Source of the DNA: Candidatus Zixiibacteriota bacterium
GTDB taxonomy: Bacteria; Zixibacteria; MSB-5A5; GN15; PGXB01
Direction: 5' to 3'
Length of the DNA: 64,000 nucleotides
Assembly: GCA_016933955.1 (NCBI GenBank)
Contig: JAFGTT010000032.1
Coordinates: 186,001-250,000, forward strand
Positions 38,657 through 44,196 of this stretch are shown one piece after another. The number at the start of each line of letters is the position of its first letter. Positions within the stretch are counted from its first letter, which is position 1. The translations under genes and the position numbers were made by a program. Under the pieces are notes generated by a model. It did not search any database and had not been told where the DNA came from. It saw only the letters and a list, made by a program, of their open reading frames with translations.

Positions 38657-41083
38657 ATGCCTCTGGAACGTGAAAAAATAGTCCCGATTTTCCTCGAGGA
38701 GGAAATGAAAAATTCCTACCTCGATTATTCCATGTCTGTGATTACCAACCGGGCCCTTCCCGATGTTCGCGATGGTCTGAAACCATCCAATCGACGAATT
38801 CTGGTGGCCATGAACGATCTCAATCTCTCGCCCGGACGGCCGCATCGTAAATGCGCTAAAATCGCCGGCGATACTTCGGGAAATTATCATCCCCACGGCG
38901 AGCAGGTGGTTTATCCCACCCTGGTTCGCATGGCCCAGGATTTCAACATGCGCTACCCGCTGGTGGATGGTCAGGGCAATTTCGGTTCCATTGACGGCGA
39001 TGGCGCGGCGGCCATGCGCTACACCGAGGCGCGCCTGACCCCGATTGCCATGGAAATGCTGGCCGACATGGAAAAAGATACCGTGGCCATGATGCCCAAC
39101 TATGATGAAACCCGCCATGAACCGAAAGTGCTTCCGGGCAAATTCCCCAACCTGATCTGTAATGGTACCTCAGGTATCGCCGTCGGTATGGCTTCCAACA
39201 TCCCGCCGCACAATCTTGGCGAGGCTGTCGATGCCATTACGGCCCTGATCGATAATGATGAATTGACCAATGACGAACTGATGCAATATATTCCTGGCCC
39301 GGATTTCCCGACCGGCGGTATTATCAACGGCCGCGATGGTATTCGCGAAGCCTACCGGACCGGCAAAGGACGTCTACTGGTACGCGCCAAGGCCGTTACC
39401 GAAAAACAGAAAAACGGCAAAGAATGCATTGTCGTAACAGAAATTCCTTTCCAGGTCAATAAATCCAATCTTCTGGAAAAAATTGCCGACCTGGTGCGCG
39501 ACAAGAAAATCGACGGGATCTCCGACCTGCGTGATGAATCCGACCGCGACGGCATGAGAATCGTTATTGAGTTGAAACGTGATGCCCAAGCGGAGATTGT
39601 CCTCAATCAGCTTTTCAAAAACACCCAGATGCAATCGACTTTCGCCATCAACCTGCTGACTCTGGTCGGGGGTGTTCCCCAAGTATTAACCCTGAGACAG
39701 CTTCTCAGCGAATTTATCAAACACCGCCATGAGGTGGTCGTCCGGCGGACTCAGTTCGATCTTAATAAGGCCGAGGCGAGAGCTCATATTCTCGAAGGTT
39801 ATAAAATCGCCCTTGATAATATCGATGCCATTATCGAATTGATCAAGAAATCGGCCGACACTCCTGCGGCCCGCGAAGGCTTGATGAAGAAATTCAAGCT
39901 GTCCGAAATACAGGCCAACGCCATCCTGGAAATGCGTCTGGCCCGGCTGACTGGGCTCGAACGAAAGAAAATCGAGGATGAATATATCGCCACTATCAAG
40001 CTGATCGCGGAACTCAAAGGCATTCTGGAATCCAAACCGCGCCGGATGGCTATCATCAAGAACGAACTGACCGAACTCAAGAAAAAATACGATGATCACC
40101 GGCGAACCGAAATCCAGGGCGCGGCCGAGGATTTCAAGCTGGAAGACCTTATCGCCGAGGAAGATATGGTTATCACCATATCCCATTCCGGCTATGTCAA
40201 GCGGTTGTCGATCACCATGTACCGCCGCCAGAATCGCGGCGGGCGGGGAGTTATCGGCATTGAAACCAAAGAGGAAGATTTCGCCGAGCACCTCTTTATC
40301 GCCTCGACCCACGATTATATCCTGTTCTTCTCCAACAAGGGCCGGTGCTACTGGGTGAAAGTGCATGAAATTCCCACCGGCGGACGGCTGGCCAAAGGCA
40401 AACCGATTGTCAATATGGTCGATCTCAGTAAGGGTGAAACTATTACGGCCTTCTGCAAGGTCCGCGATTTCGATCCCGGCCATTATATTGTCATGGCCAC
40501 CCGCAACGGCATCATCAAGAAAACGCCGCTGGATAATTTCTCCAATCCGCGCAAAGCCGGGGTCAACGCCGCCAATATTCCTGTTGATGATGAGTTGATC
40601 GAGGCCATGGTGACCGATGGCAGTTTCGATATTGTTCTGGCCACCCGGAAAGGTCAGGCCATCAGGTTCCACGAGGAAAAAATCCGGCCCATGGGCCGGA
40701 CGGCTTACGGTGTCAAAGGGATTAATCTCGCAACCGGCGATTACACCATCGGCATGGTTGTCGTCAAACGCGAAAGCACCCTCCTCTCGGTTACCGAAAA
40801 CGGTTACGGCAAACGGACCGATATCAATGATTATCGCGTCACCAATCGGGGCGGCAAAGGAGTGATTAATATCAAAACCTCCGACCGCAACGGCGAAGTG
40901 GTGACCATAAAAGAGGTTCTCGATGATGATGAGTTGATTCTGATTACCAAACGCGGGATCACCAACCGGCAGCGGGTTAAATCCATTAATGTCATCAGCC
41001 GTAACACCCAGGGCGTCAGACTCATCACCCTGGATAAAGGCGACAAGGTCATCGATGTCGCCCGAGTGGTTCAGGAAGAATAA
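38657..41083 (+). CDS. gyrA: DNA gyrase subunit A
   Basis: 808 residues. The breakage-reunion domain carries catalytic Tyr122 ([10 protein letters not shown]) at the E. coli numbering. The quinolone-determining region reads [12 protein letters not shown], so Ser83 is Gln and Asp87 is Pro. The C-terminal wrapping domain contains a GyrA-box-like QNRGGRG (near residue 525) with Asn in place of the second Arg, and a later TNRGGKG, which favours gyrase over topoisomerase IV. It introduces negative supercoils with GyrB, which is not in this window. AAGGA eight bases before the ATG supports the start. It has its own promoter and terminator. Confidence 0.95.
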
Positions 41084-41103
41084 TCCGATATCAAAATCGT
41101 TTT

Positions 41104-41135
41104 AGGGCAGGATTATTATGGTCCTGCCCTTTTTT
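41104..41135 (+). terminator. Intrinsic terminator after gyrA
   Basis: AGGGCAGGA and TCCTGCCCT pair exactly over 9 nt and run into TTTTT. Confidence 0.93.
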
Positions 41136-41229
41136 ATAGCCACGATTTATAGCCTGCACTAATACGTATCCCTCTGACTGTTTTACGCTTATGTTATATG
41201 AACGTATTCCTGCCGAATTTCCGGCCCGG

Positions 41230-41244
41230 TGACAGGATTTGTCA
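41230..41244 (+). promoter_or_regulatory. Putative operator 1 upstream of uvrA
   Basis: TGACAGGATTTGTCA, an inverted repeat with half sites TGACA and TGTCA and a 5-nt centre. It lies just upstream of a promoter-like element. A near-identical copy lies at 41307. Confidence 0.6.
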
Positions 41245-41253
41245 TTAATGTGA

Positions 41254-41281
41254 TTTTCAAATAAGTAAAAAAATCTATATA
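41254..41281 (+). promoter_or_regulatory. Candidate promoter for uvrA
   Basis: TTTTCA (41254-41259), 16-bp spacer, TATATA (41276-41281). It lies between the two operator-like repeats. Predicted leader about 75 nt. A TATATT at 41322-41327 is an alternative -10 without a good -35. Confidence 0.4.
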
Positions 41282-41306
41282 GATAATCTGAAAATCAGTC
41301 CCCGAC

Positions 41307-41321
41307 TGACAGGAATTGTCG
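41307..41321 (+). promoter_or_regulatory. Putative operator 2 upstream of uvrA
   Basis: TGACAGGAATTGTCG, 13 of 15 bases identical to operator 1, 77 bp downstream of it, with half sites TGACA and TGTCG. It overlaps the end of a small hairpin TCAGTC-CCC-GACTGA (41295-41309). Together the two copies bracket the candidate promoter, an arrangement typical of repressor looping. Confidence 0.6.
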
Positions 41322-41364
41322 TATATTACAGGTTACACTTTTTTTGAAAGCAATTTGAAAGCAA

Positions 41365-44196
41365 ATGAGCGAATCGAAAGAAATCTTTATAAAAGGTGCC
41401 CGGGAGCACAACCTCCAGAACATCGATGTCCACATCCCCCGCAATAAACTGGTCGTGATAACCGGCCTGTCCGGTTCGGGTAAATCATCCCTGGCGTTCG
41501 ATACCATCTATGCTGAGGGCCAGCGGCGTTATGTCGAATCATTGTCGTCCTACGCCCGACAGTTTCTCGGTCTGATGGAAAAACCCGATGTCGATCTGAT
41601 CGAGGGGCTTTCTCCGGCCATTTCGATCGAACAAAAGGGCTCGGCCAAAAATCCCCGTTCGACAGTCGGCACCGCCACCGAAATCTATGATTATCTCCGT
41701 CTTCTCTTTGCCCGCATGGGCGTTCAGCACTGCGTCAAATGCGGCAAACCGATCACCCGTCAAACGGTAGAGCAAATTGTCGATTCGGTTCTCTCATTCG
41801 AGGAAGATACCCGCCTGATGGTTCTGGCGCCGGTTGTTCGCGGAAAAAAGGGTGAACATCGCGAAATCATCGAGGAGGCCAGAAAAGAGGGCTTCGTGCG
41901 GCTTCGGATCGATGGCGAAATTGTCGAGACCGACCACGAGATCAATCTCAAGAAAAATGTCAAGCACACCATCGAGATTGTCGTCGATCGGCTGGTTGTC
42001 AAAAGACGCTCCGCCCGCCGCCTGGCCGATTCGGTCGAAACCGCCCTCAAAACCGCCGGCGGCATTGTTCTGATCAATATCAAGGGTCAGGATATGCTTT
42101 TCTCCGAGCAATCGGCCTGCCTCGATTGCGGGATCAGCTACGAGGAACTCTCACCCCGAATGTTCTCCTTCAATTCTCCCTTCGGAGCCTGCCCCACCTG
42201 CTCCGGACTGGGCCAGAAAATGGATATTGATCCGAGACTGATTATCCCCGATCCTTCTCTGCCGCTCAATCAAGGAGCCATCAGCCCCTGGGGAGCCGAT
42301 ATGGCCAATTGGTACCGCTTCATGCTTCGTGCGGTAGCCCGGCATTACGATTTCAAGCTGTCCGCGCCTTTCGAAAAACTCCCCGAGAAAATTCAAAAGA
42401 TTATCCTTTATGGTTCCGGCAAAGAGCAGTTGCGCTTCGAATATGAACATCATAACGGCCGCGGAACGGGTGAATACATCGGCAAATTCGAAGGCGTTAT
42501 CCCCCACCTGGAGCGGCGCTACCGCCAGACCCAGTCATCGGGCGTGAGGCAGTGGATCGAGCAGTATATGTCCATTTCGCCCTGCCCTGATTGTCATGGT
42601 TCGCGGCTGAAACCGGAAGCACTCTCAGTTGTCATTAATCGCGAAACTATCGACTCGGTGGCCGAGATGTCGGTCAAATCGGTTAGAAAGTTCTTCGATG
42701 AACTGCCGCTGACCAAACGCCAGGAATTGATCGCCCGGCAAATTCTCAAAGAAATTCGCCAGCGACTGGGATTTCTCGATGATGTCGGCCTTAATTATCT
42801 TACTCTCAGCCGCGCCGCTTCGACTCTGTCCGGCGGCGAGATGCAACGAATCCGCCTGGCAACCCAGATCGGTTCACGCTTGGTGGGTGTCATGTATATT
42901 CTCGATGAACCATCCATCGGACTGCATCAGCGCGACAATCGCAAACTTCTGGGCACCCTGACCGGTCTGCGTGATCTCGGTAATACCGTGATTGTCGTCG
43001 AACACGACCGCGAAACCATCGAGTCCGCCGATTATGTTATCGATCTGGGCCCTGGAGCCGGCATCATGGGCGGCAAAGTCGTTGCCGAGGGAACCCCGGA
43101 GCAGATTCGTAAATCCAAAAACTCTATTACCGGGGCCTATCTGAGCCGCCGCATGGTGATTCCGACGCCTGATTCAAGACGCACTTTCAATGGTAACCTG
43201 ATCACGCTCGAAGGTGCCCGCGGTAATAATCTTAAAAATATCAAGGTCGATATTCCGCTGGGAGTTTTCACCGTCGTAACAGGTGTCTCAGGCTCGGGCA
43301 AATCGACCCTGATAAACGAAACCCTGTATCGTATTCTCTCCCGCAAGTTCTACAATTCGCGCAAAACGCCTCTGGAATATGATCGGATCAAGGGACTGGA
43401 GAATATCGACAAGGTGGTAGCCATCGATCAATCGCCCATCGGACGTACTCCTCGCTCCAATCCGGCCACCTATACCGGTGTTTTTACGTATATCCGTGAC
43501 CTTTATTCACAACTGCCCGAGTCGAAAGTGCGCGGTTATCGCCCCGGACGATTTTCATTCAATGTCAAGGGCGGACGTTGCGAGGCCTGCCAGGGAGACG
43601 GTATCATCAAGATCGAGATGCATTTCCTGCCCGATATCTATGTCCCGTGCGAGGTCTGCAAGGGCAAACGGTTCAACCGCGAAACCCTGGAAGTGACCTA
43701 CAAAGGGGAAAATATTGCCGAGGTGCTCGATATGACCGTCAATGAGGCTCTCGAGTTCTTCAAGAATATTCCCCGGATCAAGCGCAAGCTGATGACTCTG
43801 AACAAAGTCGGTCTGGGTTACATTCACCTCGGTCAGCAGGCCACCACCCTCTCGGGGGGCGAGGCCCAGCGGGTGAAATTGTCTTCGGAATTGTCCAAAA
43901 CGGCTACCGGGCGAACGCTGTACATCCTCGATGAACCCACCACAGGACTGCATTTCGAGGATATCAGGATGCTTCTCACGGTTCTCAATGAGCTGGTTGA
44001 CCGAGGTAACAGCGTTCTGGTGATTGAACATAACCTCGATGTCATCAAAACCGCCGATTTTATCATCGATATCGGTCCTGATGGGGGTGATGATGGCGGC
44101 CGGATCATTGCCACCGGCACTCCTGAAGAGGTTGCACGGGTCAAATCATCTTACACCGGTCAATATATCGACCGGGAATTAACCGGCGCTAAATAG
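41365..44196 (+). CDS. uvrA: Excinuclease ABC subunit A
   Basis: 943 residues, the standard length. Two ABC ATPase modules are present with Walker [10 protein letters not shown] (34-42) and GVSGSGKST (near 640), both signature motifs LSGGEMQR and LSGGEAQR, and zinc-binding CxxC clusters ([34 protein letters not shown]). UvrA dimers scan DNA for bulky lesions and load UvrB. The ATG has no strong ribosome-binding site (GAAAGCAA only). It has its own upstream control region with two copies of an inverted repeat, consistent with damage-inducible expression. Confidence 0.97.

Follow-up and report, generated by a model that had tools for sequence, protein, structure and literature searches.

Paired sites before uvrA as candidate targets of a PafBC/DriD-type WYL activator in Zixibacteria

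The uvrA upstream region

The window, a 64-kb stretch of DNA analysed as a whole, contains gyrA followed by the presumed target gene uvrA, and a likely terminator between the two means that uvrA has its own promoter region (Table 1). This region holds two 15-bp sites which, exactly as the preliminary description had them, agree at 13 of 15 bases, have starts separated by 77 bp and consist of inverted TGACA/TGTC(A/G) arms around a 5-nt centre. The pattern TGACA-N5-TGTCR has three matches in the window, one site being read on both strands, against an expectation of 0.16, and none of 100 shuffles reached three. The remark that the window holds no third good copy is likewise borne out: all remaining matches carry three mismatches, which is chance level. 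Further matches to TGWCRG-N10-TANNNT in the window lie inside coding sequence and were set aside.

Table 1. Features at and around the uvrA promoter region (window coordinates)
Feature	Position	Strand	Remarks
GC-rich hairpin with T run, likely terminator	41103..41136	+	3' of gyrA (38657-41083); assigned by eye
Site 1, perfect palindrome TGACAGGATTTGTCA	41230..41244	+	135 nt upstream of uvrA ATG
Element AATGTGATT	41247..41255	+	2-3 nt past site 1; from family conservation
Site 2, TGACAGGAATTGTCG	41307..41321	+	58 nt upstream of uvrA ATG; this genome only
TATATTAC, likely uvrA -10 region	41322..41329	+	Family form TATATTAYAGGTT; from sequence comparison
TACACT (a TANNNT)	41334..41339	+	Distance to site 2 exceeds the canonical PafBC-type spacing by 1 base
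uvrA, presumed target gene	41365..44196	+	943 aa

A promoter had been proposed between the two sites, and its elements TTTTCA (41254-41259) and TATATA (41276-41281) are present with a spacing of 16 nt, yet they make up one candidate only: TATATTAYAGGTT, directly past site 2 (41322 onward), is more likely the -10 region of uvrA, because family-wide conservation singles it out. Site 2 thus abuts a conserved -10-like TATATTAYAGG, and no -35-like hexamer was found 17 bp from TATATTAC. Three sister genomes (L131-L133) carry TGNCA-N5-TGTCA at the position of site 1, followed by AATGTGATT, an element that is kept even where site 1 is lost and that occurs also downstream of the recA motif. Besides these degenerate forms of site 1, the motif precedes uvrA in this genome only; apparent uvrA sites at -9 in L131 and L132 were discarded, as they correspond to the uvrA start codon region (ATGACAGAA).

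The genome, a 3.38-Mb Candidatus Zixibacteria MAG, was scanned by pattern and by stretches. With up to one mismatch, TGACAGGANTTGTCR has nine matches (two of them a single site on overlapping contig ends) and the reversed control none, a large excess; the looser TGACA-N5-TGTCA, also with up to one mismatch, occurs in 118 places against 36 for its control. Exact matches to TGACAGGANTTGTCR number three in the genome, two of which are the uvrA pair. The two uvrA sites are real and go beyond chance. Several perfect palindromes (at selD, a thioredoxin-like gene and the 3' end of an HDOD gene) were left out of the regulon, being intragenic or beside terminators.

The motif before recA and lexA in relatives

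A family search located recA and lexA; both genes and uvrA were retrieved from up to 40 relatives, and their upstream regions were compared. The motif proved to be the core of a 21-bp palindrome, YACTGACA-N5-TGWCAGTG, which lies before recA in the majority of f1, f3 and f4 genomes, these being three of the four best-sampled families, at 90-280 nt from the start (usually 90-155 nt, up to about 280 in f3). In the genome under study, the recA palindrome reads CACTGACAGCATTTGACAGCG and the promoter TGACAGCG-N8-TATATG, a near match to TGTCRG-N10-TANNNT; the exact word, with TG(T/A)C, occurs upstream of recA in 16 of 30 cases. A second recurrent target is comM, encoding an Mg-chelatase-like ATPase, at which we find TGTCAGTC-aatcatcc-TATTAT here and the full promoter also in many relatives.

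At lexA the picture is reversed: the motif is present in 0 of 30 upstream regions when one mismatch is allowed, and a different palindrome, CTGMMCA-N2-TGKKCAG, lies just past a TTGACA -35 in all families (27 of 30 within two mismatches; fuller form TTGACA-N-CTG(A/C)(A/C)CA-NN-TG(T/G)GCAG). Upstream of recA and uvrA in the relatives compared, no box of this lexA type was found. The preliminary description had suggested that the sites are either the lineage's damage-response operator or belong to an unrelated repressor, and had looked to both recA and lexA for copies. Of this, the link to the damage response is supported by the conservation of the motif before recA in most Zixibacteria, and the expectation for lexA failed. 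Since uvrA and recA are common SOS genes and the motif does precede recA, the uvrA sites could in principle be the LexA (SOS) boxes of the lineage. We reject this reading as highly improbable: the motif is absent at lexA in 30 genomes, while LexA autoregulation is, to our knowledge, nearly universal; lexA has a conserved box of its own that recA and uvrA lack; and the recA motif is lost together with the gene for a WYL protein described below, whereas lexA is retained.

The palindrome CTG(A/C)(A/C)CA-NN-TG(T/G)GCAG is itself a candidate LexA box of Zixibacteria, apparently undescribed in the literature covered (L098, upstream of position 2112 on the minus strand; L160-L189). The Bacillus-type GAAC-N4-GTTC was rejected for lexA, as it appears in one family only and in a one-mismatch form, whereas CTGMMCA-N2-TGKKCAG is conserved more broadly. 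A separate recurrent element, AATGTGAT(A/T), was observed downstream of the recA motif (L100-L128), past uvrA site 1 (41247-41255) and, inverted, before lexA of f4 genomes (L169-L179, reverse strand); it is enriched upstream of genes in a sample biased to recA and uvrA, and is possibly a second promoter element or the site of another regulator.

Promoter spacing and a WYL protein as candidate regulator

The position of the palindrome relative to the -10 element is fixed: Among 98 distinct sites gathered from the fetched DNA, TANNNT lies exactly 8 nt past TGTCAGTN in 53, compared to 0-12 at other offsets (P about 1e-42 per orientation), and the -10 is missing at about half of the motif sites. 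The composite TGACA-N5-TGTCAG-N10-TANNNT occurs 174 times, in 68 of 132 genomes of the phylum, against one site for the reversed control, and its only two exact occurrences in this genome lie before comM and before a gene adjoining that of the WYL protein, hereafter the partner gene. The mycobacterial LexA-independent recA P1 promoter has been described as tTGTCRgtg-8 nt-TannnT (PMC5656591) and a variant of the M. tuberculosis PafBC motif as TGTCAG-10N-TANNNT (PMC8151990). At the level of sequence, the Zixibacterial half-site and its spacing are this published mycobacterial PafBC promoter word, and the novelty with respect to it is the second, inverted half-site upstream. The fixed -10 spacing favours a PafBC-type activator site within the promoter over a repressor operator, so that the repressor suggested earlier has become the less favoured option.

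One protein with a WYL domain (PF13280) was recognised in the genome. It comprises 316 aa (C24:10996-11943) and has the Pfam domains HTH_11, WYL and WCX, all above cut-offs; a sequence comparison with the PDB ranks PafC first (E 9.5e-15), and its AlphaFold model, of moderate quality (pLDDT 75), matches DriD and PafBC, fold matches that rest partly on sequence. The gene is followed by the partner gene, whose product, a paralogue of 202 aa, combines an HTH with a WYL-like Sm fold, has no WCX and gives PafBC chain 9fnd_X as its best fold match. Such an adjacent HTH plus WYL-like paralogue occurs in f1, f3 and a few f4 genomes, and none stands beside the WYL gene in most of f4. Between the WYL gene and the partner gene lies a copy of the motif with the correct -10 spacing, which is among the few perfect palindromes; 10 of 11 family members retain a copy at this place.

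WYL gene and recA motif also share their distribution. In the scorable genomes, 25 have both, two the motif only, one the WYL orthologue only and eight neither (Fisher p = 1.3e-5, ignoring phylogeny; about four independent losses), and completeness is 64-66% in the two motif-only genomes. The f2 family and G037, which have no recA motif, lack the orthologue, as does G003, in which the recA motif has decayed. In the single genome with a WYL gene and no recA motif (G026), the recognition helix reads HVRSIYRYV as opposed to the near-invariant TER[ST][IV][YF]RD elsewhere. As a side observation, the f2 genome G029, with a recA lacking the motif, contains an apparently broken WYL gene with two TGA stops (L249, G029:C56), which suggests a recent loss.

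A symmetric 21-bp palindrome would fit many homodimeric regulators, and the pairing of WYL protein and site is a prediction from sequence; the regulon might thus be real and be run by some other, unrelated dimeric protein, repressor or activator, whose occurrence happens to coincide with that of the WYL gene. We consider this improbable, since the PafBC promoter word and its spacing are matched exactly, a site adjoins the sole recognisable WYL gene, WYL gene and recA motif share their phylogenetic profile, and the recognition helix is altered in G026. A WYL regulon in Zixibacteria, taken apart from the uvrA pair, is what we hold with good confidence.

The membership of uvrA is held less firmly, because the -10 spacing of its sites is non-canonical and their outer flanks (GG..TTA and AC..TAT) deviate from the regulon consensus. 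The canonical arrangement of half-site and N10-TANNNT is absent from both uvrA sites: at site 2 the -10 spacing is 1 bp too long for the PafBC-type word, and site 1 attains the spacing only via its left half, TGACAG-N10-TAATGT. Together with the restriction of site 2 to this genome and the degenerate state of site 1 in sister genera, these deviations would suit a pair that serves something else or is a non-functional, lineage-specific relic beside a genuine recA/comM regulon. Such a reading is unlikely: a known PafBC-type target has two copies, identical in 13 of 15 bases, in a 92-bp span of its promoter; the pair makes up two of the three exact genome matches; and the position of site 1 is conserved in the three sister genomes. 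We therefore lean, somewhat more than evenly, toward the pair being a working part of the regulon, and regard the uvrA sites as probable members with a weaker claim than the regulon itself.

A putative LexA-independent damage regulon

Taken together, the uvrA sites are rather probably binding sites of a PafBC/DriD-type WYL activator that would run a LexA-independent DNA-damage regulon in Zixibacteria. From the evidence above we infer both the assignment of the regulator and its DNA-damage response, and the following course of events would be expected: Damage exposes single-stranded DNA, which would bind to the WYL domains of the 316-aa HTH-WYL-WCX regulator, perhaps together with its 202-aa neighbour. 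The activated dimer would then bind YACTGACA-N5-TGTCAGTG and, via the fixed TGTCAG-N10-TANNNT geometry, present a promoter without a good -35 to the housekeeping polymerase, thereby switching on recA, comM, the regulator's partner gene and, if the same protein acts at its sites, uvrA in this genus. In mycobacteria, control of recA, uvrA and uvrC by PafBC has been reported (PMC8223512); if the uvrA pair is functional, uvrA would join recA as it does there. Zixibacteria thus probably use an ssDNA-sensing activator plus LexA for their repair genes. Our literature search found no LexA or WYL damage regulons in Zixibacteria.

The closest known system is PafBC/RecA-NDp (P1) of mycobacteria and other Actinobacteria, which resembles the present one in the word TGTCRG-N10-TANNNT at recA, in recA (and uvrA) as targets, in a coexisting separate LexA system and in an HTH-WYL-WCX regulator with an adjacent related HTH gene. 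It differs in several respects: Here, in another phylum, the -26 element appears twice and forms a 21-bp inverted repeat, and the Zixibacterial site is palindromic, whereas mycobacterial PafBC binds a non-palindromic site as a heterodimer. Moreover, the pair is diverged: the partner has no recognisable WCX, and most f4 genomes have no partner gene beside the WYL gene. In Zixibacteria, comM and the partner gene belong to the core targets. We would class the feature as one that works like PafBC/RecA-NDp, and full membership is not claimed because the heterodimer, ssDNA activation and binding are putative and the symmetry of the site differs. DriD of Caulobacter crescentus is a homodimeric WYL activator that binds a pseudo-palindromic site of ~20 bp at a poor -35 and whose site adjoins its own gene (PMC12340889), which is the similarity; its consensus, ATACGAC-N7-GTCGTAT, is unlike the Zixibacterial half-sites CACTGACA/TGTCAGTG with their N5 centre, and it targets didA, bapE, recJ and dnaG, not recA. 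The LexA/SOS regulon shares the targets recA and uvrA and differs in its operator at lexA. We see an even chance that Zixibacteria have a PafBC-like, LexA-independent regulon in which a single WYL activator, homodimeric or partner-assisted, acts on the mycobacterial -26 element in palindromic form.

If this is true, the RecA-NDp promoter architecture would be ancient across phyla or transferred between them, recA would have come to stand outside LexA control in much of a phylum, and a PafBC-type response, known mainly from Actinobacteria, would extend to an uncultured phylum, with the same half-site and -10 spacing serving a symmetric site. Whether ssDNA-sensing WYL activators, not LexA, are the main controllers of recA in Zixibacteria becomes testable, and the candidate regulator-operator pair and the separate LexA box can be assayed in vitro without cultivation.

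Less regular targets, identified by eye, comprise an endonuclease-IV-like gene, DNA methyltransferases, GIY-YIG proteins, RAYT-like transposases, a Cas3-like HD gene and a PaaK-like gene, and in some genomes the palindrome is also close to transposases and surface-protein genes. Genes for RAYT-like (Y1) transposases lie ~30-110 nt downstream of perfect or near-perfect palindromes (L254, L264, L276, L291, L301, L305), several of which have N8-TANNNT; possibly these transposases are under damage control, or the palindrome doubles as a REP-like sequence. Clusters of ACTGACAG(A/G)(A/T)TCTGTCAGT, some of them paired, stand beside beta-propeller lipoprotein genes (L251, L252, L255 and L256 in G017; also G007 and G013) and could represent a mobile palindrome family, not operators. 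Finally, a near-perfect site is located 244 nt upstream of a gene for a Cas3-like HD-domain protein (L284, G014:C69).
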